Shown here: piece after piece, positions 274 through 12,303 of the stretch | How positions within the stretch are numbered: position 1 is the stretch's first letter | Layout of the letters: each line of letters starts with the position of its first letter | Made by a program: the position numbers and the translations under genes | DNA from: Paracoccaceae bacterium | Lineage (GTDB): Bacteria; Pseudomonadota; Alphaproteobacteria; Rhodobacterales; Rhodobacteraceae | Reading direction: 5' to 3' | DNA length: 13,549 nucleotides | Assembly (NCBI GenBank): GCA_002683355.1 | Contig: NYTF01000026.1 | Span: 59,466 to 73,014 of the forward strand | Notes under the pieces: model-generated | Databases searched by the model: none | What the model saw: the letters and a program-made list of their open reading frames with translations, nothing else | Told to the model about the DNA's origin: nothing

Positions 274-1011
274 TTAAGTTCCCAAGCCCTTAAGACTTGT
301 TCCGCCACAAACATATAGAACTTGACCAGTTACGAAACTTGCCTTTTCATCCAAAAAGAATTCCACAGCATTTGCTATGTCTCCAGTTGTTCCAATTCGA
401 CCAACTGGAATATTATCAGATATTTCTTGTTGAAGCTCACTATCTTTTGGAACCAAATCCCAGAAATTTTGGGTAAGTACAGGACCAGGAGCTATAACAT
501 TTACTGTTATATTATTTTCAGCAAGTTCTAAGGCCCAAGTTTTTGCTAAGCCATGAATACCAGCTTTAGTTGCTGCGTAAGCTGATCTTGTTGGCATACC
601 CATTGATGCTCTAGAACTTATAAAAACTATTCTGCCATTCTTATCATTTATCATATTTGGAAGTATTGCCTGAGTTAGAGCAATAGGGGCTGCTAAATGC
701 AGATGGCTAAGTGTTAAAATGTCATCTGTTTTAACTTTTGGGAGCAAGTTGGGCAAAATCATTCCAGCATTGTGAACTATGTTATTTATTTTGTGTGATG
801 AACTTATTAGCTGCGCTGCTTCGTTAGTTTGTTCTGTATCTGTTAGATCAGCTTGATAGCTGATTAGGTTATCATGTTTCCAATTTGGCAGGTCTAATCC
901 TAGCGTTACCACTACCTCACCTTTGGCTATTAAATTTTTTGTAAGTGTGGCACCTATACCAGAACCACCGCCAGTGATTAATGTTGTTTTGGTTTTCATA
1001 AATTTATCCAT
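274..1011 (-). CDS. Short-chain dehydrogenase/reductase (intact SDR)
   Basis: This 245-residue protein is a complete classical SDR oxidoreductase, of usual length for the family. It shows the nucleotide-binding motif TGGGSGIG (residues 13-20), NAG (81-83), and the catalytic Ser132, Tyr145 and Lys149 (YAATK). The C-terminus has the usual VTGQVLYVCGG segment. It should be a cytoplasmic NAD(P)-dependent dehydrogenase. It is the last gene of the minus-strand operon and overlaps the cyclase gene by 8 bases (ATGGATAA), so it is co-transcribed and coupled. In a Rieske dioxygenase operon an SDR often oxidises the cis-dihydrodiol, or a hydroxyl on the side chain; either role fits here, and the sequence does not decide. 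The start could also be the ATG at codon 5 (999); neither has a strong ribosome binding site. No convincing terminator follows the stop. Confidence 0.9.
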   Translation of the reverse strand: MDKFMKTKTTLITGGGSGIGATLTKNLIAKGEVVVTLGLDLPNWKHDNLISYQADLTDTEQTNEAAQLISSSHKINNIVHNAGMILPNLLPKVKTDDILTLSHLHLAAPIALTQAILPNMINDKNGRIVFISSRASMGMPTRSAYAATKAGIHGLAKTWALELAENNITVNVIAPGPVLTQNFWDLVPKDSELQQEISDNIPVGRIGTTGDIANAVEFFLDEKASFVTGQVLYVCGGTSLKGLGT

Positions 1012-1792
1012 TGACTAACGCTAATACTCTGAGTGGGCTTCCAGAGCCCTGTTCTATTTTTAAAGGGTTTGCTATAATTATACTACCAAATGTGGGTAAT
1101 TTGTCTAAATTCTTTAAACATTGTAGCCCATATCGACCATTGCCATGTAGAATTGAATGCGCTGGCAATGGAGGATCAAAGTCAAAAGCTTGTCCTGCAT
1201 CCGTTCCTATTGTTTCAACTGCTAACCCCAAACAATCCCTTTCAAAAACTAAAAATTCTATAGCTGATTTGTCAGGACCAGGTGAATGAGCCCCATCCTC
1301 ATGCATATTAAGATACTTTTCAGTGCCAACTAATTTATACCAATCAGTTCTTAAAGCTATCCAGTTTTTTGGCGGTATTTTCCCATGAATTTTCTCCCAC
1401 TCCATCAGATATTCTTTTGTTAATAAGAAATCTGGGTTTATCTTTGCTTCTTCACTAATATTGATTACGACAGCAGGCGCGACAAAATCTTTTACTGGTA
1501 TAGTTTCTACCGTATTATTTGGTATATTTTTTCCTGTAACCCAATGGGCGGGTGCATCAAAATGAGTTCCTGTATGTTCATTCATTGAAATATTATTCCA
1601 ATACCAAGCTGGACCATTTTCATCGTACCTAGACAATGTTTCCATTTTAAACTGTTCGCATTGGCCAAATTCGGGAGGTAAAATAATTACTGGAAAGTCA
1701 GGGCTTAGCGTATTTGTTAGGTCAACAATTTTTACTGATTCATTTGATATAGCCTTGGCTAGTTCTGTTAAAGTTGTATTGCTTTTTGTCAT
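1004..1792 (-). CDS. Cyclase-family metal-dependent hydrolase (isatin hydrolase / kynurenine formamidase type)
   Basis: The 262-residue product belongs to the cyclase family (PF04199) that includes bacterial kynurenine formamidase and isatin hydrolase. The hallmark HTGTHFDAPAHW (residues 73-84) supplies the metal ligands of the family, H73, H77 and D79, with H83 close by. Downstream, GTDAG (196-200), PAHSILHGNGRYGLQCL (210-226) and PLKIEQGSGSPLRVLALV (243-260) match the long-form members rather than the short kynurenine formamidases. Such enzymes hydrolyse an amide or lactam, for example isatin to isatinate. The gene starts inside the stop of the DUF35-SDR gene (ATGA) and overlaps the last SDR gene by 8 bases. 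Its place directly after the CoA ligase and side-chain cleaving genes suggests it opens a cyclic product released by them. The substrate is an inference; the family call is firm. Confidence 0.88.
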   Translation of the reverse strand: MTKSNTTLTELAKAISNESVKIVDLTNTLSPDFPVIILPPEFGQCEQFKMETLSRYDENGPAWYWNNISMNEHTGTHFDAPAHWVTGKNIPNNTVETIPVKDFVAPAVVINISEEAKINPDFLLTKEYLMEWEKIHGKIPPKNWIALRTDWYKLVGTEKYLNMHEDGAHSPGPDKSAIEFLVFERDCLGLAVETIGTDAGQAFDFDPPLPAHSILHGNGRYGLQCLKNLDKLPTFGSIIIANPLKIEQGSGSPLRVLALVNG

Positions 1793-3027
1793 GGGCTCAT
1801 CTCTTTAATTGCAAGTAGTGGATCTAATTGCCACCTCAGAAGAATATCTTTTGCAACATTGCCAACAGTGCTTATTTCTTGACCCTTTTTAAGGGACTCG
1901 ATGACAGTACTTGCTAATTGTTTATGTGAGATTTTTGGTGGTAATATTTCTTGATGCCATTCATCATCTATTGGCCCAAATAATATACTATAAACTTTTA
2001 AACCAGTTGTTTTCATTTCAGTTCTAAGACTGTTTATTAATGAGAGTCGCGCTGCGGAACTAGCCGACATGCTTGCATAACTTGGATGTCCAGTAAGTGA
2101 AAAAACTGATACTAAATCAACAAATGCAACAGCTGGCCTTTCTTTGTCCCCAGATCGCGAACTTAATGTGGGACAGAAAGCTTTAGCCAATCTGGACAAA
2201 GCATTAACATTTATATCCAGAGAATTCTGTAACTCTGTTATTTTGCCACTAAAGGCTACAGAACCAGGCCTAACATGATATGCAGTATTAATTATTAAAT
2301 CTATTTTACCACCATATTGTTTGGCGGTTTTGGTCACACTTTCGGTGTTTAGTAAGTTTAAAGGTATTAATTTTATTTTTGGGTTTTGAGAAAGACTTTC
2401 TTTTCCGTCAAAAAATAAGTTCATATCACTATTACCAAGATAGATAGTTTCTGCACCCGCATTTATTAGTTCTTTTGCTAAAGCTTGGCCTATTTTGTTA
2501 CGTCCATCGGATATTAACACACGTCGGTTTTTTGGAGAGGCTGTGAATTGCCTGTACTGATAATCATCTTCCATATGTAAGCTAGCCTTTCTTGGTAAAG
2601 CAAATAGTGCTGGCGCCCCACTACGGTCTAACATTATATTCATTACTATTTCATCACCAATTTTTATATCGCCATGTAAATGCGCGAAAGCGGTTGGGCC
2701 TTCATCTAATAAAATTGTTCCGATGCGCCAAGGAATATGCTGTTGAAAATAGAGATTATTGGTCGAGCGAATGGTTGTATCAGCTAAAAGAACACCTACC
2801 CTTTTTTGCGGCTTCCATTTTAATTCACCCCAACATTTTGGACAACGATCTCTGGGTGGGTAAGTTGATGAATGACAATCATCACAAACTTGCAGGACAA
2901 AATTGCCCAGAGAAGCATGACATGACATAGCAAGGGCAGCACGACTTCGAATAGCAGGTAAAACTTGCGCAATTTCAGATTTAACTAGCGGATTCTTTTT
3001 TTTAGGGGTTGTTAAAGGTTTGGTCAT
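1789..3027 (-). CDS. DUF35 (Zn ribbon + OB fold) protein fused to a degenerate SDR domain
   Basis: This 412-residue protein joins two domains. Residues ~25-150 are a DUF35 unit: a zinc ribbon with C48-x-x-C51 and C62-P-K-C65, followed by an OB-fold segment (~75-135). DUF35 proteins are partners of thiolase-fold enzymes (for example ChsH2 with Ltp2, or BbsA with BbsB), and the thiolase gene lies just upstream with an ATGA overlap. Residues ~168-400 have the layout of an SDR, but its key motifs are lost: the glycine motif reads SDGRNKIG, and the YSASK box reads MSASS, so the catalytic Tyr and Lys are Met320 and Ser324; Ser307 is kept. The DNA was rechecked codon by codon at these sites and shows no frameshift. 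The SDR part is therefore probably a structural or binding domain, not a working dehydrogenase. The fusion suggests a stable complex with the thiolase-like protein. Confidence 0.85.
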   Translation of the reverse strand: MTKPLTTPKKKNPLVKSEIAQVLPAIRSRAALAMSCHASLGNFVLQVCDDCHSSTYPPRDRCPKCWGELKWKPQKRVGVLLADTTIRSTNNLYFQQHIPWRIGTILLDEGPTAFAHLHGDIKIGDEIVMNIMLDRSGAPALFALPRKASLHMEDDYQYRQFTASPKNRRVLISDGRNKIGQALAKELINAGAETIYLGNSDMNLFFDGKESLSQNPKIKLIPLNLLNTESVTKTAKQYGGKIDLIINTAYHVRPGSVAFSGKITELQNSLDINVNALSRLAKAFCPTLSSRSGDKERPAVAFVDLVSVFSLTGHPSYASMSASSAARLSLINSLRTEMKTTGLKVYSILFGPIDDEWHQEILPPKISHKQLASTVIESLKKGQEISTVGNVAKDILLRWQLDPLLAIKEMSP

Positions 3028-4202
3028 CTAATGTTATCAGCTTCAATAACTACTGCACCTGTGCAAACACCGCGATCATAATTTACCATGCCAAAGCCTG
3101 ATATTAAACCAATTGAAGAGTTTGGTATTTGATGACCTAAAGGTTGTTTTATTGCCTGCCTTAAGGCTTCTGTAACATTTTGATACCCACCAGCCGCGCC
3201 AGCCTGCCCTGCAGAAAGTTGGCCACCATTTGTATTTAAAGGTAAATCCCCTGTAATAGTGAAATCAGTTTTATTTATAAATTCTTTAATTTTTCCTTTT
3301 TCACAGAAACCTAAATCTTCCAATTGCATTGCCACTATTAAGGGGTAGTCATCGTATAACTGTGCAAAATCTATTTTATCTGGCGTGCACTTGGCTGAAG
3401 TCCAAAGATCATCAATGTCTTTGGCCCAACCTCCCCGATATTGAATTGTGTCTTCTGAGAAAGCATTGTGTCTTTCAATAGTACCACGAATTTTGACCGT
3501 GGATAATCCAAGTTTCTCGGCTATGTCTGGGGTGGTAACAACAAATGCTTCTGCACCGGCACATGGCATGACACAATCAAAAAGATGTAGAGGATCAGCG
3601 ATTGGTTTTGCCTCTATATATTGTTTAATACTTAGTGGTTTTTTCATTAGCGCGATAGGATTGCTTAAAGCATTCGCTCTTTGTGCAATCGCTATTTTGC
3701 CAAAATCTTCGCGACTAACATTAAACTGTCGCATATAGCTGCCAGTCATTATAGCAAATGTTGCGTTAGGCCCACCTTGGCCATATGGATAGGTAGCATC
3801 TTGAGAAAACCTCGAAAAATTATCTAGTGTTTTCTGAAAGCTATCAATATGATTTGTATCTGCTGCTAAACATACAATAATGCTGGCATCTCCAGCCTGA
3901 ACTGCTCGGGCAGCTCTTCGAATGGCCATAACACCACTTGCACCGCCAGTTGGAATATGATCCATCCATTTGGGACATAATCCAAGATGCTGAACAATAC
4001 CGACTGCGGTATCTGGATTAGCTGAAAAGCTTGAAAATATGATGCCATCAAAATCATTTGGCATAAGACCTGTTTCTAAGCTTAGTTTTTTTAATGCTTC
4101 TCCAGCCCACCAATGGGCAGTTTCAAATGAAAACCTCTCGTAGGGAACTGTTATTGGCGCACACAAAGAGACCCCATCGTATGGCTTCTGTGTGCTTCTC
4201 AT
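3024..4202 (-). CDS. Thiolase-superfamily protein lacking the nucleophilic Cys (probable retro-aldolase or CoA-dependent C-C lyase)
   Basis: The 392-residue product has the length and motif order of the SCP2-type thiolase family, including LEDLGFCEKG (residues 295-304) and the late NTNGGQLS motif (323-330). At the position of the thiolase nucleophile (usually CASG or CSTG) it reads GGASG (86-90), and the GHP box that carries the catalytic His reads GQA (332-334). A C-terminal CTG (380-382) remains. Loss of the Cys is known in thiolase-fold aldolases such as Ltp2, which cleave tertiary beta-hydroxyacyl-CoA together with a DUF35 partner. Here the next gene is a DUF35 fusion overlapping by ATGA, and the gene before is a CoA ligase overlapping by ATGA. 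I infer carbon-carbon cleavage of an activated side chain, by retro-aldol rather than thiolysis. The exact substrate is unknown; ordinary thiolase activity is less likely. Confidence 0.87.
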   Translation of the reverse strand: MRSTQKPYDGVSLCAPITVPYERFSFETAHWWAGEALKKLSLETGLMPNDFDGIIFSSFSANPDTAVGIVQHLGLCPKWMDHIPTGGASGVMAIRRAARAVQAGDASIIVCLAADTNHIDSFQKTLDNFSRFSQDATYPYGQGGPNATFAIMTGSYMRQFNVSREDFGKIAIAQRANALSNPIALMKKPLSIKQYIEAKPIADPLHLFDCVMPCAGAEAFVVTTPDIAEKLGLSTVKIRGTIERHNAFSEDTIQYRGGWAKDIDDLWTSAKCTPDKIDFAQLYDDYPLIVAMQLEDLGFCEKGKIKEFINKTDFTITGDLPLNTNGGQLSAGQAGAAGGYQNVTEALRQAIKQPLGHQIPNSSIGLISGFGMVNYDRGVCTGAVVIEADNIR

Positions 4203-5815
4203 AACTGTCTTTTCTTAAGATTCCGCATATCATGGAATTCATTATTATTTTTCATATTTTCTACAATATTTTTTAGATCTCCTCGTCGTACCTTTTGGGT
4301 TGCTGTTAAGGGTAATTCGGTTACAAATTTTATGAGCCCTGGGACCTTGTAATAAGCCATTTCATTTAGTGCCCAGCTTACAATATTTACAGCAGTATCA
4401 TAATTATCAGAATTATTATTAAGAATTATCAATACAGCAACTTCTTCACCGCGAAGATCATCTTTTGCCGCAGCTGCTGCACAAATTTTTATACTTGTGT
4501 GCCTATTCAAAACGGACTCGATTTCTACAGCAGCTATGTTTTCTCCAGACCGCCTTATAATATTTTTCTTACGGTCAATAAAATAAAGAAACCCAGCTTC
4601 ATCTGCTTTTACAATATCCCCTGTATTGAACCAACCATTTGCCCAGGCTTTTTGAGTCTCGACGTCATTTTTTAAATAGCCAGAAAAAAATCCATATCTT
4701 TTATCAGGCCCTTTTCGTCTGACAAGTAGCTCACCTGGAACGCCCAGTTTTGTATTATTTCCCTCGTCATTAACAATTTTTATTTCAACATCACTTTGAG
4801 GTTTGCCAAAGCAGGACAGACCAATTTTTCTGGGCTCGGTATGAGCACTTATTGTTCCACCGCTACCCGTTTCGGTCATAGCCCAGGCCTCGATTAATGG
4901 AAATCCAAATCGGGTTTCAAATGAAGCATGTAATTTCTGATCCACACCGGCACCAAAACCAAATCGAACATTATGTTTCATATCATCAGCATGTGGCTTG
5001 TGACTCATAAGTATTGATGGCATTATCCCCAGATAATGAACACATGTTGCCTTGCTTTTTTTAACTGATTGCCACCATGTTTTAGGATGAAATCGATCTA
5101 ATATGATTAGACACCCTCCAACGGTTAACATTGCGGTAAATGAAACAGCCATCGCATTCATGTGAAACAAAGGAAGAGGAGTAATCATTCTTTCATGGTT
5201 CTTATATAAATTTATTGCGCCTCCAACTTGAGAGTACCAATCTCCTGAATGTAGAAAGTATTCATTGCTCAAGATGCAACCCTTTGGCTGGCCAGTTGTT
5301 CCAGATGTGTAGAGCAAAGCGCACTCAGTTGCGCTATCAATATTAATTATTTTATTATCTGATTTAAGATTTTTTGGTATTGTTTCTAGCGTAGATATAA
5401 TTTCAACAGCAAGGTTCCTATTGTTTACAGCTTTCTGTAATTCTGTAATTCTGTCTGCATTTGAGATGACCAGCTTCATTTCAGAATGTTCTATAATATA
5501 TTCCAACTCAGCCACTCGTAGGTCATGATTAATTGGAACAACTGATATTCCAAGGCTATTTAAAGCTAACCATATTTCTATAAAAACGGGTTGATTTTGA
5601 AGCAATAAGCCAATCCGCTGGCCGCAAACATATCCCGCTTTTTGGAATTTTAGTTTCCAGACCTCAACAGATTCTTGCATATCTTTATATGAAATATCCC
5701 CATCATCGATTTTATAAATTTCAGCAGTCTCTTTTAGTACATGTAAAAATGGCGCATGTTTTCGCTCATTTGCTACTGACTGGAATCTTTTATAAACTGT
5801 TTCACTTTTCATCAT
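4199..5815 (-). CDS. AMP-forming acyl/aryl-CoA ligase
   Basis: This adenylate-forming enzyme activates a carboxylic acid with ATP and CoA. Numbered from the chosen start, it carries the P-loop YTSGTTGQPKG (169-179), the AMP motif MTET (313-316), the GWFNTGDI box with the ribose-binding Asp400, the hinge region DRKKNIIRRSGENI, and a C-terminal LPLTATQKVRRGD with the likely catalytic Lys508. Overall it resembles the CaiC-like group of medium-size acyl-CoA ligases, but the substrate cannot be read from the motifs. The frame is open to an ATG at 5857, which would overlap the beta-subunit gene by 38 bases. I prefer the tandem ATG at 5815/5812, 4 bases after that gene's stop, because MKSETVYKRF is a typical N-terminus. 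Neither start has a strong ribosome binding site. It presumably activates the product of the Rieske oxygenase. Confidence 0.9.
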   Translation of the reverse strand: MMKSETVYKRFQSVANERKHAPFLHVLKETAEIYKIDDGDISYKDMQESVEVWKLKFQKAGYVCGQRIGLLLQNQPVFIEIWLALNSLGISVVPINHDLRVAELEYIIEHSEMKLVISNADRITELQKAVNNRNLAVEIISTLETIPKNLKSDNKIINIDSATECALLYTSGTTGQPKGCILSNEYFLHSGDWYSQVGGAINLYKNHERMITPLPLFHMNAMAVSFTAMLTVGGCLIILDRFHPKTWWQSVKKSKATCVHYLGIMPSILMSHKPHADDMKHNVRFGFGAGVDQKLHASFETRFGFPLIEAWAMTETGSGGTISAHTEPRKIGLSCFGKPQSDVEIKIVNDEGNNTKLGVPGELLVRRKGPDKRYGFFSGYLKNDVETQKAWANGWFNTGDIVKADEAGFLYFIDRKKNIIRRSGENIAAVEIESVLNRHTSIKICAAAAAKDDLRGEEVAVLIILNNNSDNYDTAVNIVSWALNEMAYYKVPGLIKFVTELPLTATQKVRRGDLKNIVENMKNNNEFHDMRNLKKRQL

Positions 5816-5819
5816 TATT

Positions 5820-6293
5820 TCACATGAAAAGCTGAATATTACTAAATGGCGCATCAAAATTAATCAAATCAATCCTTTTCAGACTAATTTTGATATTGTT
5901 ATCCACTAGTTTTAAGTCATGACTGGCCCAACCCGAAAATCTTTCAAGAATATCACCTCTGGTTTCCGTATATGTAAACGGTGTCCAGGTCTTAAATAAA
6001 TCTTTTTCCTCGTTAAATTCCAAGATTTTAGGTGTTTGAAGTATGTGATGAGATCGGCTTTTAGGTTTTTGACTAAAGGTCCGCTCGCCCGAAAGACGTT
6101 CAACTCGAATAGTTAGCAATAACATGTCTTCGTACATCAAAGATTGCTGCATCATTGGATCAGTTTGGTTCCATTCCATAGGCATCCAATATCTTGCATC
6201 CTTATCATACAACTCTAACCATTTGCTCCATTGCATTGTATCCAGCAGAAATGCTTCTTCATAAATAAAATCAATGATCGTTTCTTGTTTCAT
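5820..6293 (-). CDS. Aromatic ring-hydroxylating dioxygenase, beta subunit
   Basis: The 157-residue protein is a small structural subunit of a Rieske non-heme iron oxygenase, with the NTF2/SnoaL-like fold. Recognisable parts are EEAFLLDTMQWSKWLELYDKDARYWMP (split: EEAFLLD at 12-18; WLELYDKDARYWMP at 25-38), the YEDMLLLTIRVERLSG segment (54-69) and SRSHHILQ (79-86). All are typical of beta subunits of benzoate-, anthranilate- and biphenyl-type oxygenases. It has no cofactor motifs, as expected. Its ATG overlaps the stop of the alpha-subunit gene (ATGA), so the two are translated together in equal amounts, fitting an alpha3-beta3 enzyme. It is slightly short of many family members (about 160-190 residues) but complete. 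Confidence 0.93.
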   Translation of the reverse strand: MKQETIIDFIYEEAFLLDTMQWSKWLELYDKDARYWMPMEWNQTDPMMQQSLMYEDMLLLTIRVERLSGERTFSQKPKSRSHHILQTPKILEFNEEKDLFKTWTPFTYTETRGDILERFSGWASHDLKLVDNNIKISLKRIDLINFDAPFSNIQLFM

Positions 6294-7636
6294 TCAGCAG
6301 CCTCTAATTTTTCACTCATATTTAATGTCATATATTTTGACCAGGCATTAAATTGGTTTCGCATCTGCCTTTCAGACGTACCATTAATGATTTCTGTTAC
6401 ATCATGTTTTTCGTCTTCATCGTAAAGCCTTTGAAGGTTAACCCATTCATTGCCATCAGATTTTAAACCTTCTTGCGCTCTTTCGTACATTTCTAGATCG
6501 TCATGACCAACAATTGATGTTGGGGCATTTATAAATCTATTATACATGAGGCTTCGTTCAAAGAATTTTTGAGGTGCGCCAACTAGTCTAAAACACCAAC
6601 TTTCTACCAATGTTTTATCAACACTTATTGGAATAAAGTTACGTAAAATTTGAACAGCCCCTTTGACCATAATATTCGGAAAATATACAGTATTGTGTCT
6701 TACATCATTAATAATTTGTTTGGCTTTTTCGTCACCATGTTTTTCTACCATTTGTTCCATATAACCATCAACATCTGTGTAATCTTGGTGAATTGAGCCA
6801 GTAACACCTGTGTGCCCATGTCCATTAGGCCATATTCTTATGCCTGTGCTTTCGTAGAATTCATAAGGGCTCATAAAAGGAGCGTAAAACTGCACAGCAA
6901 TAGGAGTGTCTTTAGAAACACTATTAACCTTTTCTCGCTCCCATACCTTGACTGCAGTACCAGCGCTACTTTCATGGGCTACCATAGGATGGCAAGTATC
7001 AGTTTGATTTTCAACTAGCATTTTCCAATTGCAGGTATGCATATATCTAATGGGAGAGCTGACAATTTCGAGGGCGCCGTTTGGTGAACGGTCTACCATA
7101 TTGTCGATTGTTGATAAGGAATCACCAAAGTAATCCTCAAAAGAAGGACCATTTTTACTTAACCTAGCAAAGATAAAGTCCTTATAAATTTTTACATTTT
7201 CGACTTTTGAGAGGCCCTTAGAAGCAGCTGTATCTGCAAATCCAGTGCCTTCATAACCCTTTTTCAATGGAACTGCTAAAAGTGATCCATCTGTTTTGAA
7301 CGACCAGGCATGATACGGACATCTGAAAAACTTTCCGGTATTGCCACAAGGTTCAGATGCGATCTTTACCCCTTTGTGAGGGCACCTATTATACAAAACA
7401 TGTATGCTATTATCACGATGCCTGGAAACTAAAATTGGTTGATTACCAATTTTGCTTGTTATAAAATCACCTGGAGTTTTAATTTGACTAGCGTGTCCAA
7501 TGAAAATCCAAACATTTGGGAACAACTGCTCCATTTCAAGCTTAAATATTTCTTCATTTATGTATACATCGCGATGAACTGATTTATCTAAAACTAATTT
7601 TTGAACAGCTTTTTTGTTGTTTTCATATTTGTTCAT
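6290..7636 (-). CDS. Aromatic ring-hydroxylating dioxygenase, alpha (Rieske) subunit
   Basis: The 448-residue catalytic subunit of a Rieske oxygenase. The [2Fe-2S] ligands are C85-x-H87 and C106-x-x-H109 (CPHKG and CPYHAW). The mononuclear iron site is ENQTDTCHPMVAH: the bridging Asp213, then His216 and His221; the third ligand is Asp379 or Asp380 in VGHDDLEMYE. The stretch NTVYFPNIMVKGAVQILRNF (316-335) and the following VDKTLVESWCFRLVGAP are characteristic of a subgroup of carboxylated-aromatic oxygenases whose substrate I cannot assign. The enzyme inserts O2 into an aromatic or heteroaromatic ring using electrons from the reductase encoded just upstream. The start is supported by AAGGG 8 bases upstream. 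It overlaps the beta-subunit gene by 4 bases. No separate ferredoxin gene is present. Confidence 0.94.
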   Translation of the reverse strand: MNKYENNKKAVQKLVLDKSVHRDVYINEEIFKLEMEQLFPNVWIFIGHASQIKTPGDFITSKIGNQPILVSRHRDNSIHVLYNRCPHKGVKIASEPCGNTGKFFRCPYHAWSFKTDGSLLAVPLKKGYEGTGFADTAASKGLSKVENVKIYKDFIFARLSKNGPSFEDYFGDSLSTIDNMVDRSPNGALEIVSSPIRYMHTCNWKMLVENQTDTCHPMVAHESSAGTAVKVWEREKVNSVSKDTPIAVQFYAPFMSPYEFYESTGIRIWPNGHGHTGVTGSIHQDYTDVDGYMEQMVEKHGDEKAKQIINDVRHNTVYFPNIMVKGAVQILRNFIPISVDKTLVESWCFRLVGAPQKFFERSLMYNRFINAPTSIVGHDDLEMYERAQEGLKSDGNEWVNLQRLYDEDEKHDVTEIINGTSERQMRNQFNAWSKYMTLNMSEKLEAAE

Positions 7637-7654
7637 CAGATTTACCCTTCATGT

Positions 7655-8599
7655 TTAAATATCAATAACGAGGCGCTTTGATTTTGCTCTAGAAACACAG
7701 ATTTGCATTACTGTGTTAGAAGCCTTTTCTTCATCTGTTAATATTATATCCCGGTGATCAGGCTCACCAGAAATCACATCACATTGGCAAATTCCACAGT
7801 CGCCACGTTGGCAATCATATAATGGATCTAGCCCTGCATCTTCCAACGCATTTATTATAGTTTGATCTGAATTGACTTGAATCACCTGACCGGTACTATG
7901 TATCTCTACTTCGAAAGCCAAGTTTTCACTATTGTCATTATTGGTTTTAAATAGTTCAAAATGAACCCGTGAACTATCCCAATTTAATGTAAGGGCTGTA
8001 TTTTTGACAGTGTCGATCAAACCGTGTGGTCCACAGATGTATACATGAGAGCCATTTGGCGCATTTTTTAAAATGGCTTCGATATTTAAAGCCGATTCAT
8101 CATTATCATAATGCAATTGTATTTTATCACCACATATTTTCATCAGTTCAGGAACAAATGCTAAGGAGTTTTTGTGACGCCCAGCATAATGTAAATTAAA
8201 ACTTTTATTTGTTTTAGCTAAATCTGCAGCCATTGATAGTATTGGTGTTACACCAATTCCTCCGGCGATTAGCACATGGTGTTGGGCTTCTTCTTTAAGT
8301 TCAAAATTGTTTTGTGGTAGAGTGGCTACAATCTTATCCCCTACTTTTAAAGAATGCATATAACTTGATCCACCTGTGCTATTTTCTTCTAGTAACACAC
8401 CAATTGCTATTTGAGCTTGAGTTAACTCACTTAGACGAAGTAGTGAGTAGGCGCGATCATCATCGGTCGGTAACAAAACTCTAATGTGTGAACCAGCTGT
8501 CCATGACCAATTTTCACCATCTTTCAGATTAAATATAAATTTTTTTATATTTGGGGTTTCTTTTTGTATATATTGCAGTTCAATTGGTTGATTGATCAT
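7655..8599 (-). CDS. Rieske oxygenase reductase (flavin + NAD + C-terminal plant-type [2Fe-2S])
   Basis: The 314-residue protein passes electrons from NAD(P)H to the Rieske oxygenase. Domain order is flavin-binding first (RAYSLLR, residues 49-55), then the nucleotide domain (AGGIGVTPILSM, 112-123; YICGPHGL, 187-194), then a plant-type ferredoxin domain with Cys263, Cys268, Cys271 and Cys301. This order is that of phthalate dioxygenase reductase and vanillate demethylase reductase (class IA), where flavin is FMN and no separate ferredoxin is needed. It is the first gene after an 85-base gap and is followed, 18 bases later, by the alpha subunit. A weak promoter and a palindrome lie in that gap, so it may head its own transcript. 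No good ribosome binding site is seen before the ATG. Confidence 0.93.
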   Translation of the reverse strand: MINQPIELQYIQKETPNIKKFIFNLKDGENWSWTAGSHIRVLLPTDDDRAYSLLRLSELTQAQIAIGVLLEENSTGGSSYMHSLKVGDKIVATLPQNNFELKEEAQHHVLIAGGIGVTPILSMAADLAKTNKSFNLHYAGRHKNSLAFVPELMKICGDKIQLHYDNDESALNIEAILKNAPNGSHVYICGPHGLIDTVKNTALTLNWDSSRVHFELFKTNNDNSENLAFEVEIHSTGQVIQVNSDQTIINALEDAGLDPLYDCQRGDCGICQCDVISGEPDHRDIILTDEEKASNTVMQICVSRAKSKRLVIDI

Positions 8600-8684: not shown

Positions 8685-9596
8685 CTAGATACTAATCACG
8701 GGATTTCGTAGTACTCCAATGCCTTCAACACCACATTCTATAACATCGCCTGGCCACATCCATTCTTGAGGATCTCTTCCCGCCCCCACGCCAGAAGGTG
8801 TCCCGGTTGCTATAATGTCCCCCGGTTCGAGCGTCATTCCTGAAGATAAATCAGAAATTAAAGTTGGAATATTAAATAGTAAGTGCTTTGTATTAGAGCT
8901 CTGCTTTTCTACACCATTTTTTTTCAACCAAAGGTTTAAATTATGTGGATCAGTAATTTCATCTTTCGTCACTATGCATGGTCCAAATGGTGCGAAGGTA
9001 TCCTGTCCTTTTGAAAAAATCCATTGCCCGGCCCGGCGATTATCACGTGCTGAAACATCATTCATTATCGAATATCCAAAAACATGATCCATTGCATTTT
9101 TAGCCTCAATTCTAGTGGCTTTTGTTCCTATGATTACAGCTAACTCAACTTCCCAGTCTAACTGTTGCGTCATTTTACTATTGTGTTGAATACTATCACC
9201 AGTCCCAATAACTGCTGTTGGTGGTTTTGAGAATACAACCGGTTTAGTGGGTAAATCTTTTGCAGTATCAAGGTTTTTTGCTGATTCAGCTACGTGTTCA
9301 ACATAGTTTAATCCAATTCCAAAAATGTTCTTTCTTGGTGTTGGGATGGGTGCCAGTAGTGTAACATTTTCTACTGGGACAGAAATTCCTGGAGGAAGCC
9401 TTGTTTCTTTTTTATTTAATAGGTTTGATAATGCAAATGTTGCATCTGGTCCCAGGTCAATCAATCGTAACATAGTATCTGGAAGTTGAGATCCACTTAA
9501 TAGTCCTAATTTTTGAACATCTGTGACTTGACCATCGTTTATTACACCGAGCCGTGCCTTAGATGTTTTAGTTTTTCGGTAAGTTACTAATTTCAT
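8685..9596 (-). CDS. Fumarylacetoacetate hydrolase family protein (fumarylpyruvate/maleylpyruvate-type hydrolase)
   Basis: The 303-residue protein belongs to the FAH superfamily of divalent-metal C-C hydrolases. It shows GLNYVEH (95-101), the metal ligands Glu149 and Glu151 in DWEVELAVIIG, Asp180 in NDVSARD, the catalytic-loop SKGQDTFAPFGP (195-206) and ATGTPSGVG (263-271). Members of this family hydrolyse fumarylpyruvate, maleylpyruvate or similar ring-opened diketo acids to pyruvate plus a dicarboxylic acid. It follows the ring-cleaving bicupin gene after 17 bases, with AAGGA 6 bases before its ATG, so it almost surely acts on the ring-cleavage product. No maleylpyruvate isomerase gene is seen, so it may act directly on the cis product, or the isomerase lies elsewhere. 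Confidence 0.92.
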   Translation of the reverse strand: MKLVTYRKTKTSKARLGVINDGQVTDVQKLGLLSGSQLPDTMLRLIDLGPDATFALSNLLNKKETRLPPGISVPVENVTLLAPIPTPRKNIFGIGLNYVEHVAESAKNLDTAKDLPTKPVVFSKPPTAVIGTGDSIQHNSKMTQQLDWEVELAVIIGTKATRIEAKNAMDHVFGYSIMNDVSARDNRRAGQWIFSKGQDTFAPFGPCIVTKDEITDPHNLNLWLKKNGVEKQSSNTKHLLFNIPTLISDLSSGMTLEPGDIIATGTPSGVGAGRDPQEWMWPGDVIECGVEGIGVLRNPVISI

Positions 9597-9613: not shown

Positions 9614-10732
9614 TTATTTTTCCACTATTTGATGACCATTGTTTTCGGGAAATTCTTGTTCTTTGTAAAAACCAAGTTTGTCCATTACTGGGAGATCGTT
9701 GAATGAAAAAAGACAAGAATCCTCACTTCTGTCAGTATTACAGTGTTCATGCCATGTCCAACTTGGGACACAAAAAATATCTTTTTCTGCCCAGTCAAAT
9801 TTTGTACCGCCAATTATTGAATATCCATTACCTTTTGCTACTTGATAAATGATATTTCCAGTATGGCGGTGTGACTTTGTTTGTTCACTCGGGCGCAGCA
9901 TTTGCATTTGTGCACCCATGGTTAACATTGGATCATTACCAGTCTGGGGATTAACATACCTCATAATTATTCCATCGTATGGGGATCCATCGGATACTTT
10001 TGCATAATTTTTCAAGGCTTCATAGGTTGGCTCCCAAGAAAATTTTAATAGTGGAGAATATGGTTTATCCCACTTATCTAATGCGGGCATTAGGCCTGGT
10101 GCTCCATAAGTAAGAGGACTATCATTAGTAGGTAGATTTGAAGACTGATATTCTTCTGGGTGTACTTCGTAAAAGTTAGCTTCAAGAGCATTGGTTAGTG
10201 GAATATCTAACCCATCTTGCCAAATGCATGTGCTTCCATCTTCAGAAATACCGTGCTCGTGCCACGTACCATTCGGAGTGATTACAAAATCCCTAGAACC
10301 TAGTTCAACTTTATGACCATCAACAATTGTATATGCGCCTTCACCCTCCATGATGAATCGGAGTGCCGAAGCTGCGTGGCGATGAGCTCCTGCTTTTTCA
10401 CCAGCCTTCATTACTTGTATTCCCGAAAAAAGCCATCCACAGGCAGCACTAACATCTTGTCGCTTTGGGTTTCTTAGATAAATGACTCGTCGCCCAGCAT
10501 CTTCTGGCCGCACAAGGTCAATAGCTCTAAGAACCTGTTTACGCAGTTCGGAGTGACGCCATATGGTGGGAGCAGATTTTGGGGATGGCTCCCAGGGCTC
10601 GATATCATTTGCAACAGTCCATAATGCTCCAGTATCAATTTCAGATAGTTCCTTGTAATATTCGGTTAATTCAGAGGTGTCTTTTACCCTAGCACGTCCA
10701 AAGACATCATCTTCTTTATTGATTCCATTCAT
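9614..10732 (-). CDS. Bicupin ring-cleavage dioxygenase (gentisate / salicylate 1,2-dioxygenase family)
   Basis: The product (372 residues from the chosen start) is a double-cupin Fe(II) dioxygenase. Numbered from the longer GTG frame, the N-terminal cupin has HRH (His122, His124) followed by ALRFIMEGEG and His163 in TWHEHG, the expected iron ligands with the conserved Arg130. The second cupin repeats the pattern with HRH (293-295) and WHEH (332-335). Family members cleave gentisate, and in some cases salicylate or 1-hydroxy-2-naphthoate, between the carboxylate and hydroxyl carbons. I cannot separate these substrates by eye. The frame extends to a GTG at 10747, but the ATG at 10732 is preferred, because GGGAG lies 6 bases before it and the GTG has none. 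It is the first gene of the minus-strand block and is paired with an FAH hydrolase. If co-transcribed, it would be read from the divergent region. Confidence 0.9.
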   Translation of the reverse strand: MNGINKEDDVFGRARVKDTSELTEYYKELSEIDTGALWTVANDIEPWEPSPKSAPTIWRHSELRKQVLRAIDLVRPEDAGRRVIYLRNPKRQDVSAACGWLFSGIQVMKAGEKAGAHRHAASALRFIMEGEGAYTIVDGHKVELGSRDFVITPNGTWHEHGISEDGSTCIWQDGLDIPLTNALEANFYEVHPEEYQSSNLPTNDSPLTYGAPGLMPALDKWDKPYSPLLKFSWEPTYEALKNYAKVSDGSPYDGIIMRYVNPQTGNDPMLTMGAQMQMLRPSEQTKSHRHTGNIIYQVAKGNGYSIIGGTKFDWAEKDIFCVPSWTWHEHCNTDRSEDSCLFSFNDLPVMDKLGFYKEQEFPENNGHQIVEK

Positions 10733-10738
10733 TTTGGG

Positions 10739-10743
10739 CTCCC
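10739..10743 (-). promoter_or_regulatory. Ribosome binding site that fixes the bicupin dioxygenase start
   Basis: GGGAG on the minus strand, 6 bases before the ATG at 10732-10730. It lies inside the longer GTG-started frame, which argues against that earlier start. Confidence 0.6.
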
Positions 10744-10918
10744 ACACTTATAAAGTTTTTGAATAACTAAATATTTTATTACTTTAGTGTAATTAATTTT
10801 TATTATTTGTACTATAAAAAATGATTATGATAAATTATTAAAACTAGTTAAATTTTTAAAAATGACTAACAACTTCAAACAATGATTAAAAAAATATTAA
10901 GCGGCCCAGTACTCCTGT

Positions 10919-11088: not shown

Positions 11089-11574
11089 TTGAGTAATGAT
11101 ATGGAAATTAATAAATCAGAACGGCTTTCCCAAATTAGAAAGAGTGATTTGTCAAGTGCATGTTGGGGTTACAAGGTTGTAGTAAGACATGGACAATGTG
11201 ATCCTGCTGGAATTGCATATACGCCACATTTTTTTGATTTATTTAATATTGCTGTGGAGGATTGGTATTCTGAGTGTCTTGGTATCAATTATTATCAGAT
11301 TATTGGGTCAAGGCGAATTGGTCTGGGTTATGCTCAAGCGAATGCAAATTTTTTTGAACCCTGTTTTATGGGTGATGAATTAGAGATCTGTGTTATGATT
11401 AAAAAAATTGGCAATTCATCTTTGTCTTTAATTCTTCATGTTTTTAAAGAAGAGGTTGAAAAGCTGAGGGGTGGCTTTGTAACTGTTGCAACAGATCTTG
11501 ACACTCACAAATCTATTAAGATTCCTCAAGATATATTGAATGCATTAACTTTATATAAAAACAAATGTAATTAG
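11089..11574 (+). CDS. 4-hydroxybenzoyl-CoA-type thioesterase (hotdog fold)
   Basis: The 161-residue protein is an acyl-CoA thioesterase of the 4-hydroxybenzoyl-CoA thioesterase / YbgC group. The active-site motif is CDPAGIAYTPHFFDLF (37-52), with Asp38 as the likely catalytic residue. The sequence continues with the single hotdog domain and ends close to the usual 140-150 residue length, after a ~25-residue N-terminal extension. It hydrolyses aryl- or acyl-CoA to the free acid and CoA in the cytoplasm. Beside a CoA ligase/thiolase-like operon, the likely role is release of an aromatic acid, or of CoA trapped in dead-end esters. The start is TTG, supported by GGTGGA; an ATG at codon 5 is possible. 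It is transcribed away from the main operon, and the amidotransferase gene follows 18 bases later, probably on the same transcript. Confidence 0.85.
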   Translation: MSNDMEINKSERLSQIRKSDLSSACWGYKVVVRHGQCDPAGIAYTPHFFDLFNIAVEDWYSECLGINYYQIIGSRRIGLGYAQANANFFEPCFMGDELEICVMIKKIGNSSLSLILHVFKEEVEKLRGGFVTVATDLDTHKSIKIPQDILNALTLYKNKCN

Positions 11575-11592: not shown

Positions 11593-12303
11593 TTGAAAAT
11601 TGCAATATTAATGGCAAATACTGATGAAAGTTATTTTGCGTCTCAGCATCCGAGTGATGATAAGCATTTCGTAGATATATTAAACAATGTTAGATCTAAC
11701 TGGATTTATGAAGTCTTTAATGTTACTCACCAAAATTTTCCTAACTCATTAGATAATTTTGATGGTATTATAATTACAGGTAGCCCAGCATCGGCAAATG
11801 ATAAAGATTTGTGGGTTAAGGAGCTTTTAAGTACTGTAAGAAGCTCTATTAATAAAAAAATACCAATATTTGGTTCTTGCTTTGGCCACCAAGTGATTGC
11901 AAAGGCTTTAGGATCAAAAATTATAAAAAATCCAGATGGTTGGTCTTTTGGTCTTGTGAAGACGCAAGTTGTAGCAGACGCATCATGGCTTGAGGGTTTG
12001 GAAAAAGAAACCTTAGTTTATGCTGCACATGTTGAGCAAGTTAAAGACCTTCCAACGGGTGCCAAACTTTTATTTAAAACTGATGGATGTGATGTTGCTG
12101 GTTTTTCTATTGGAAATAATGTTTTCACAACACAGTATCATCCAGAAATGAGTCGGCAGTTTATGGTGGCTTTAACCGAAGAATTATCTATTAAATTGGG
12201 AAAAGAACTTACAGACAATGCCCTTTTTTCTTTGAATAAAAAGGCCCATACAATTCAGTTTGCTGAAGCAATAGCGAAATTTTTTGAAAGATCGTCAGCT
12301 TAA
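11593..12303 (+). CDS. Class I glutamine amidotransferase-like protein (GMP synthase glutaminase family)
   Basis: This 236-residue, single-domain protein has the complete class I triad: Cys96 in GSCFGHQ (94-100), His183 and Glu185 in QYHPEMS. ITGSPASANDKDLW (61-74) matches the stand-alone family related to the glutaminase domain of GMP synthase. No synthetase partner domain is attached and none is encoded nearby, so it probably hydrolyses a gamma-glutamyl amide bond on its own, releasing glutamate, instead of feeding ammonia to a synthase. Similar stand-alone proteins occur in amine and aniline catabolic gene sets, where they remove gamma-glutamyl groups. The substrate here is unknown. It starts with TTG behind GAGGT, 18 bases after the thioesterase gene. 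Its stop is 8 bases from the end of the convergent aldehyde dehydrogenase gene, so the two transcripts probably overlap. Confidence 0.83.
   Translation: MKIAILMANTDESYFASQHPSDDKHFVDILNNVRSNWIYEVFNVTHQNFPNSLDNFDGIIITGSPASANDKDLWVKELLSTVRSSINKKIPIFGSCFGHQVIAKALGSKIIKNPDGWSFGLVKTQVVADASWLEGLEKETLVYAAHVEQVKDLPTGAKLLFKTDGCDVAGFSIGNNVFTTQYHPEMSRQFMVALTEELSIKLGKELTDNALFSLNKKAHTIQFAEAIAKFFERSSA

Follow-up and report, generated by a model that had tools for sequence, protein, structure and literature searches.

We analysed a stretch of 13,549 nucleotides from a Paracoccaceae bacterium (contig NYTF01000026.1, positions 59,466 to 73,014; G000:C61:59466-73014 in our labels, G000 being the 1.88 Mb host genome), hereafter called the window. 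Eight genes at positions 274-8599, all on the minus strand, very likely form an iad-type operon for indole-3-acetate (IAA) degradation, in which the thiolase-fold protein IadG and its DUF35 partner IadH would remove the side chain by retro-aldol cleavage to isatin and acetyl-CoA. The operon is an added case of the published iad kind and extends iad in Rhodobacterales that are probably marine. What is new is the reassignment of IadG and IadH, together with a lower pathway linked to a gentisate 1,2-dioxygenase (GDO), both of which are testable predictions from sequence. In searches of open-licence literature we found no naming of a retro-aldol role for IadG or IadH, and none tying a gentisate dioxygenase to iad.

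The open reading frame (ORF) list and domain profile searches placed the eight genes in the families first described for them, and they make up the complete iadCDEFGHIJ set in the same order as the Variovorax IAA degradation locus, where iadC to iadJ are annotated as reductase, large and small oxygenase subunits, acyl-CoA synthase, ketothiolase, alcohol dehydrogenase, kynurenine formamidase and dehydrogenase (PMC12633357). Junctions D/E, F/G, G/H and H/I each overlap in ATGA, and I/J share 8 bases; from the sequence, the TTG at 5857 is a less probable start for IadF than an ATG near 5815. An earlier note on this DNA had described one tight run of these families with ATGA overlaps at four junctions, and both observations hold. 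The end that it set at 8599 does not, since an FAH-family and a GDO-type gene, which it had left out, precede the run on the same strand. Its statement that gene order matches reaction order is not strictly true either, as the published scheme (PMC12633357) places IadJ, encoded by the last gene, at the second step. The gene-by-gene comparison with iad loci that it had proposed gave an order identical to that of Variovorax, a published operon that the note had not recognised in the eight genes.

As a reference we used L137, a Variovorax-type locus from Burkholderiales, the alpha subunit of which is 89-93% identical to fragments of solved IadD chains. Its order is C-D-E-F-G-H-I-J, and its proteins are, in that order, 40, 52, 42, 49, 57, 38, 56 and 46% identical to those of the window. 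The arrangement of the window is found again in two genomes from metagenomes, L004 ('Rhodobacteraceae bacterium') and L005 ('Paracoccaceae bacterium'), with alpha subunits 88% identical. The comparison set comprised 80 loci, 64 of them with flanks of ~10 kb on both sides, and is clumped, 40 being titled Bradyrhizobium. It includes 12 stretches from 11 Burkholderiales genomes, added after IadG was found in 13 of 399; G016 corresponded to L064, already in the set, and G388, with the weakest match of the 13 (2.9e-128), was left out. All eight genes lie inside the stretch in 31 of the 80 loci (21 as C-D-E-F-G-H-I-J, 10 rearranged), and this recurrence shows that the set is not a chance one. We considered whether Bradyrhizobium-type loci, with C, D, E, F and J and no G, H or I in the stretch, use another route; this was ruled out, IadG being present at 55-58% identity in 15 of 15 genomes searched. 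IadH adjoins IadG in 15 loci (L084-L098), and in G005 the G, H and I genes sit just past the stretch end.

Searches against solved structures gave IadD 549 bits to 9o71 and 549 bits to 7yls/8h2t, near-identical in the printed alignment and presumably the structures from a PLoS Biology study; the next enzyme scored 146. The first of these, 9O71, shows IadDE from Variovorax paradoxus CL014 (PMC12633357). All Fe and [2Fe-2S] ligands are kept in the window IadD, and eight of the nine IAA-pocket residues listed with the metal ligands in PMC10374108 are identical, the exception being Leu211, which is Gln (numbering on L137). Gln occupies position 211 in 85 of 90 aligned IadD sequences, those of Bradyrhizobium loci included. 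The pocket residues Asn210, Lys325 and Tyr365 face Gln, Leu and Glu in the cinnamate dioxygenase HcaE. Overall identity is 52% to L137 and 76% to a Bradyrhizobium protein (L007). That the alpha subunit is a salicylate 5-hydroxylase, as the adjacent GDO might hint, was ruled out, the score being 101 bits there and 549 with IadD. Published work disagrees on the first oxidation product, which is 2-oxindole-3-acetate (oxIAA) in PMC10374108 and an epoxide-derived compound, then handled by IadJ, in PMC12633357.

Among solved structures, IadG was closest to CtSal, an aldolase acting on steroids (9myr, 153 bits), followed by 4u4e, titled 'Thiolase' (133), Ltp2 (6ok1, 128), acetoacetyl-CoA thiolase (87) and BbsB (7pxp, 80). 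There is no Cys at either thiolase catalytic Cys position. What we take to be the nucleophile position, placed by alignment, lies in a stretch that reads GGAS in 59 and GGVT in three of 62 aligned rows (61 distinct). Residues 283-286 are YDDY in all 62, as is Gln333, where Sal has Gln352. In printed alignments, the register of which was checked, YDDY stands opposite YDCY of CtSal (9myr, Tyr302/Cys304) and YDHF of TcLtp2. A distant DUF35-linked paralogue (L099, ~30% identical), which was part of an earlier 50-row set and lies beyond the E-value limit of the 62-row set, has YDNF and a Tyr at the Gln333 position. In two loci a second IadG (55% identical) adjoins the iad operon (L029:17461-21295 and L049:17417-19017), next to an IadH-like gene (36%) in L029 and an ORF that by eye looks like DUF35 in L049; it may be a paralogue that cleaves a related acid by the retro-aldol route. 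For CtSal, Tyr302 and Cys304 of YDCY are reported to be essential, activity being lost on replacement of the Cys with Ala, Ser or His, and Tyr294 (in YDHF) and Tyr344 are named for TcLtp2 (PMC12329534). IadG has the Ltp2/Sal-type features of a missing thiolase nucleophile, a catalytic Tyr in YDxx and a DUF35 partner. Because the published acid residue (Tyr344 of Ltp2, Cys304 of Sal) is absent, with Gln333 and Asp285 found instead, we describe IadG as working like Ltp2 and Sal and do not file it as either.

IadH matched zf-ChsH2 above cut-off, OB_ChsH2_C below cut-off, and adh_short, a short-chain dehydrogenase/reductase (SDR) domain. The four ChsH2-type zinc-ribbon Cys are present in 53, 52, 52 and 52 of 53 rows (52 distinct). 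Classical SDR proteins carry the motifs TGxxx[AG]xG and YxxxK. In the SDR tail of IadH the first Gly of the former is found in none of the 53 rows (Asp 40, Asn 11, Ala 1, Ser 1); the verdict on the cofactor motif was drawn from this Gly only, Ala being common at the sixth residue. Tyr is kept in 18 rows, Lys in 14 and both in three, leaving the pair incomplete in 50; the window protein has Met and Ser at these positions and that of L137 Phe and Lys. Nine Alcaligenaceae IadH (L064, L067, L068, L070-L074, L076) are DUF35 proteins of 130-140 residues with no SDR part. In IadJ, taken as a control for a working SDR, the cofactor glycines as well as Tyr and Lys are intact in all 83 aligned sequences, that of the window among them. 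The SDR half of IadH has most likely decayed and has no catalytic role.

IadI scored 351 bits against isatin hydrolase A (5nna/5nnb) and 26 against kynurenine formamidase. The marks proposed for isatin hydrolases are a manganese site, a WxW/FxW pocket and GLQC/GLAS (PMC6117287). In an alignment of 46 rows, including the window, HxxxHxD and W-x-W are present in all 46 and GLQC in 45, the Leu of the remaining row being unreadable. IadI is considered a possible broad-specificity amidase, annotated kynurenine formamidase, in PMC12633357; an isatin hydrolase would fit the data given there equally.

Taken together, these results bear out much of what the earlier note had proposed. Its IAA-type substrate is supported by the likeness of IadD to the solved IAA oxygenase and by eight of nine pocket residues, its Cys-less thiolase-fold protein by alignment at the two catalytic positions, its isatin hydrolase by the nearest relative and the published signatures, and its isatin route by those signatures. 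Grouping of the alpha subunit and the cyclase with enzymes of other substrates had been named as evidence to the contrary; they are nearest to IadD and isatin hydrolase A, respectively. The active site of IadG and the decay of the SDR half in IadH support the proposed retro-aldol cleavage without proving it.

We propose that IadCDE oxygenates the indole ring of IAA and that IadJ oxidises the hydrated product to dioxindole-3-acetate, both steps being published for Variovorax and carried over by homology. IadF would then form the CoA thioester of dioxindole-3-acetate, and IadG, bound to the DUF35 domain of IadH, would cleave this tertiary beta-hydroxyacyl-CoA to isatin and acetyl-CoA; Tyr283 would act as the base and Asp285 and/or a further residue as the acid, with no covalent Cys intermediate. 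IadI would convert isatin to isatinate, for which motif support is strong, and isatinate would proceed to anthranilate or anthraniloyl-CoA. A tertiary 3-hydroxyacyl-CoA is not oxidisable to a 3-ketoacyl-CoA, and Claisen thiolysis is therefore barred; retro-aldol cleavage yields isatin and acetyl-CoA.

The published scheme differs at this step: a conventional ketothiolase (IadG) and an alcohol dehydrogenase (IadH) act with IadF to remove the side chain reductively, giving C8H7NO2. PMC12633357 derives this scheme from annotation and from metabolite patterns, and C8H7NO2 builds up in an iadI mutant and in a strain expressing iadCDEFGH with J and K2. The portion of PMC12633357 covered here does not name isatin as a detected compound, and isatin, dioxindole and isatinic acid are reported in V. 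paradoxus CL14 cultures in PMC9613470. C8H7NO2 is the formula of dioxindole and can be read as such, an identity that is our own reading; in the iadI mutant it may be dioxindole that arises from isatin by reduction off the pathway. We consider the published assignment unlikely and favour retro-aldol cleavage, because IadG lacks the thiolase Cys and has YDDY in register, and because 50 of 53 IadH have decayed SDR motifs and the nine Alcaligenaceae proteins lack the domain; moreover, by general chemistry, dioxindole-acetyl-CoA as a tertiary alcohol cannot yield the 3-ketoacyl-CoA needed for thiolysis. It is also unlikely that a different indole or aryl acetate is the substrate of the operon. A case in point is 5-hydroxyindole-3-acetate (5-HIAA), a serotonin product, which would give 5-hydroxyanthranilate, a candidate for the neighbouring gentisate-type dioxygenase. 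Variovorax IadDE/C degraded 5-HIAA in vitro too (PMC10374108), GDO and FAH genes adjoin the operon, and pocket Leu211 is Gln in the window. However, the rest of the pocket is identical, the same Gln is common to nearly all IadD sequences including those of Bradyrhizobium loci, and B. japonicum, which has an iad locus, degrades IAA via isatin.

Several observations weigh against an IAA operon with retro-aldol cleavage. PMC12633357 assigns IadH an alcohol dehydrogenase role, and the product of IadFGH there, formed reductively, is C8H7NO2 and not isatin. Identity of the window proteins to the Variovorax-type set is just 38-57%, completeness of the host genome is 76.5%, and no MarR regulator was found among the window ORFs by the ORF list and domain searches. 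The specificity of the eight-of-nine pocket match is lowered by His216 and His221 being iron ligands and by His314 and Arg332 aligning with His and Arg in HcaE. Asp at the third motif position of IadG is without tested precedent. Tyr and Lys are both kept in the IadH of L133, L140 and L141, and a reductase role is therefore conceivable in some lineages. As to setting, iadA and iadB are used as exclusive markers of iad-like operons in PMC9613470; these markers (IorA/IorB) are not in the window, and their homologues lie on another contig of the host genome, implying an unlinked arrangement. The same source lists Alcaligenes among iad-bearing genera and marine Ruegeria pomeroyi, with an iad-type regulator, among the IAA degraders tested; iad was found in 2 of 304 marine metagenome-assembled genomes (PMC11630574).

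Table 1. Genes of the window, with positions counted from its first nucleotide.
Gene product	Position	Strand	Basis
IadJ: SDR dehydrogenase, cofactor glycines and Tyr/Lys intact	274..1011	-	46% to L137
IadI: isatin hydrolase	1004..1792	-	351 bits to 5nna; HxxxHxD, WxW, GLQC
IadH: DUF35 (Cys4 zinc ribbon and OB) fused to degenerate SDR domain	1789..3027	-	Domain profiles, motif decay
IadG: thiolase fold without catalytic Cys, proposed retro-aldolase	3024..4202	-	Best solved relative CtSal 9myr
IadF: AMP-forming acyl-CoA ligase	4199..5857	-	AMP-binding domains; 49% to L137
IadE: oxygenase beta subunit	5820..6293	-	Ring_hydroxyl_B; 42% to L137
IadD: Rieske oxygenase alpha subunit, IAA oxygenase	6290..7636	-	549 bits to 9o71 and 7yls
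IadC: flavin/[2Fe-2S] reductase	7655..8599	-	Fer2 and NAD/FAD-binding domains; 40% to L137
FAH-family hydrolase, fumarylpyruvate-hydrolase-like by context	8685..9596	-	FAA_hydrolase 242 bits; no NCBIfam model over cut-off
GDO-type bicupin	9614..10747	-	715 bits to 3bu7
4HBT-type thioesterase, divergent	11089..11574	+	4HBT_2; 31% to thioesterase beside GDO in L064
Class-I glutamine amidotransferase-like (GATase)	11593-12303	divergent from operon	Homologue of at least 50% in L004 and L005 only of 80 loci

The FAH gene lies 85 bases before IadC on the same strand, without overlap. Against NCBIfam the GDO scored 294 bits with TIGR02272 (cut-off 442) and 256 with the 5-aminosalicylate dioxygenase model (cut-off 650). 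A role for the 4HBT thioesterase in the lower pathway is possible. Past the GATase gene an aldehyde dehydrogenase gene is on the minus strand again, and upstream of it, outside the window, are genes (L003:771-3777) that we take by recognition to encode TctA, TctB and TctC, an NCBIfam scan of TctA and TctC having given no match. A TctA homologue of at least 50% identity is found in 7 of 80 iad loci, and the TctABC-like transporter is a possible IAA uptake system. An OYE-type enzyme gene lies beyond the window on the Tct side. Just past window position 274, on the same strand and ~90-140 bases after IadJ depending on start codon, is a P450 gene (L002:13330-14652), with CYP125-type proteins as nearest solved relatives. 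It is a weak candidate for an anthranilate hydroxylase, given these relatives, its presence in just two of 80 loci (L004 and L005) and a partial salicylyl-CoA-hydroxylase-like gene at a contig end of the host genome.

A GDO of at least 55% identity lies within the stretch flanks of 51 of the 80 iad loci. The same flanks hold FAH in 23 (an undercount where they stop at GDO), iorA in 47, a PRK08255-like gene in 12, and in six a gene for which racemase/maleate-isomerase-like is our guess at a name, NCBIfam having given sub-cut-off EutA and arylmalonate-decarboxylase matches. A nitrilase-like gene (e.g. L029:4862-5908; Nit6803 model 233 bits, cut-off 503) is found in 41, all of which also carry GDO, and suggests that the route may be entered from indole-3-acetonitrile. 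Eight Alcaligenaceae loci (L064, L067, L068, L070-L073, L076) have, in one direction, 4HBT, PRK08255-like, GDO, FAH, nitrilase and IadI genes, then C to J with no second IadI; iorB is present in seven of them, not in L071. The PRK08255-like protein of L064 scored 1297 bits (cut-off 1078) with the NCBIfam equivalog 'salicylyl-CoA 5-hydroxylase/oxidoreductase', and in Bradyrhizobium BTAi1 (L108) a 4HBT gene follows FAH. In the host genome, contig C42 (L107:1-5924) begins with the C-terminal 459 residues of a PRK08255-like protein, a partial gene with 721 bits (cut-off 1078), followed by MarR, enoyl-CoA hydratase, acyl-CoA dehydrogenase, benzoate-CoA-ligase-like (353, cut-off 375) and Rid-like genes. 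This MarR, looked at as a possible IadR, had 3boq as its best solved match, and 3CDH was not among the 28 matches. Contig C47 carries MarR, iorA and iorB (IorA homologue 63%, IorB 48%). In the L004 genome the PRK08255-like gene and iorAB share one contig, with iorA ~6.6 kb away, and the anthraniloyl-CoA-type cluster of C42, cut by the contig end, is probably continuous with iorAB as there.

It is improbable that GDO and FAH are chance neighbours, belonging to a gentisate pathway that has nothing to do with the iad genes behind it. The gap of 85 bases to IadC without overlap, the clumping of the loci (Bradyrhizobium accounts for 40 of 80 loci and 36 of the 51 with GDO, in raw counts) and the 29 loci without GDO within the stretch would agree with it. 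Against it stand the 51 loci themselves and, in particular, the 15 outside Bradyrhizobium, which include Phyllobacterium, Hoeflea, Nioella, the eight Alcaligenaceae and the window's two closest relatives, in varied arrangements.

Linkage to iad suggests a lower route in which isatinate would yield anthraniloyl-CoA (by IorAB, or via anthranilate and a ligase), followed by 5-hydroxylation, thioester hydrolysis and ring cleavage by GDO and FAH, every step being inferred. Alcaligenes is said in PMC8383072, citing Claus and Kutzner 1983, to take IAA via isatin to anthranilate and gentisate; PMC6221969, a 2018 review, cites that paper for indole, which its title names, and states that the gene for the anthranilate-to-gentisate branch was not revealed. 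The GDO- and FAH-type genes beside iad are candidates for this branch. A 2-aminobenzoyl-CoA monooxygenase/reductase forms 5-hydroxyanthraniloyl-CoA under NADH limitation (PMC3534580). As a tentative whole, which we hold to be possible rather than probable, IadG-IadH would be a third, YDDY-type thiolase-fold retro-aldolase, outside steroids, that releases isatin for IadI; IorAB (IadAB) would oxidatively decarboxylate isatinate, a 2-oxo acid like phenylglyoxylate, directly to anthraniloyl-CoA; a salicylyl-CoA-hydroxylase-like enzyme would hydroxylate C5; 4HBT would free 5-hydroxyanthranilate; and the iad-linked GDO and FAH would cleave the ring. Two points weigh against this lower pathway. Anthranilate forms in Variovorax from iadC-K2 alone (PMC12633357). 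Formation of anthranilate therefore does not require IorAB. The genes on C42, we assume, could also feed the non-aromatic 2-aminobenzoyl-CoA route, in which no GDO is needed.

If true, this scheme would supply genes for the anthranilate-to-gentisate branch of indole and IAA degradation proposed for Alcaligenes in 1983, and it names candidate ring-cleavage genes for a branch listed as unassigned in the 2018 review. For side-chain removal, a step inferred in a 2025 preprint from annotation and metabolite patterns, the comparison yields residues and domains that can be tested. Since auxin is exchanged among algae, plants and bacteria, and the engineering of iad cassettes into root bacteria is already under way, correct enzyme roles are of practical use.

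Compared with known systems, the window has the eight genes and order of the V. paradoxus iad locus and keeps its IadD pocket. It differs from the iad loci of V. paradoxus, B. japonicum and R. pomeroyi in the adjoining GDO, FAH and thioesterase genes and the TctABC-like transporter beyond, and in having no visible iorAB (iadAB) or MarR, iorAB being beside a MarR gene on the other contig. With isatin hydrolase A of Labrenzia and Ralstonia, IadI shares the metal ligands, the aromatic WxW clamp and GLQC, with no difference at motif level. Benzoylsuccinyl-CoA thiolase BbsAB resembles IadG-IadH in combining a thiolase fold with a DUF35-type partner, and is more distant (80 bits, against 153 for CtSal; 84 bits with the NCBIfam BbsB model, cut-off 750). 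The closer parallels are the steroid side-chain aldolases Ltp2-ChsH2(DUF35) and Sal-Shy(DUF35), with which IadG-IadH shares a nucleophile-less thiolase fold, Y-D-x-[YF], a DUF35 partner and presumably a substrate of the beta-hydroxyacyl-CoA type. The third motif residue is Asp in IadG, unlike His in Ltp2 and Cys in Sal, and Gln333 is as in Sal; the partner, IadH, is free or joined to an SDR domain and not to a MaoC hydratase.

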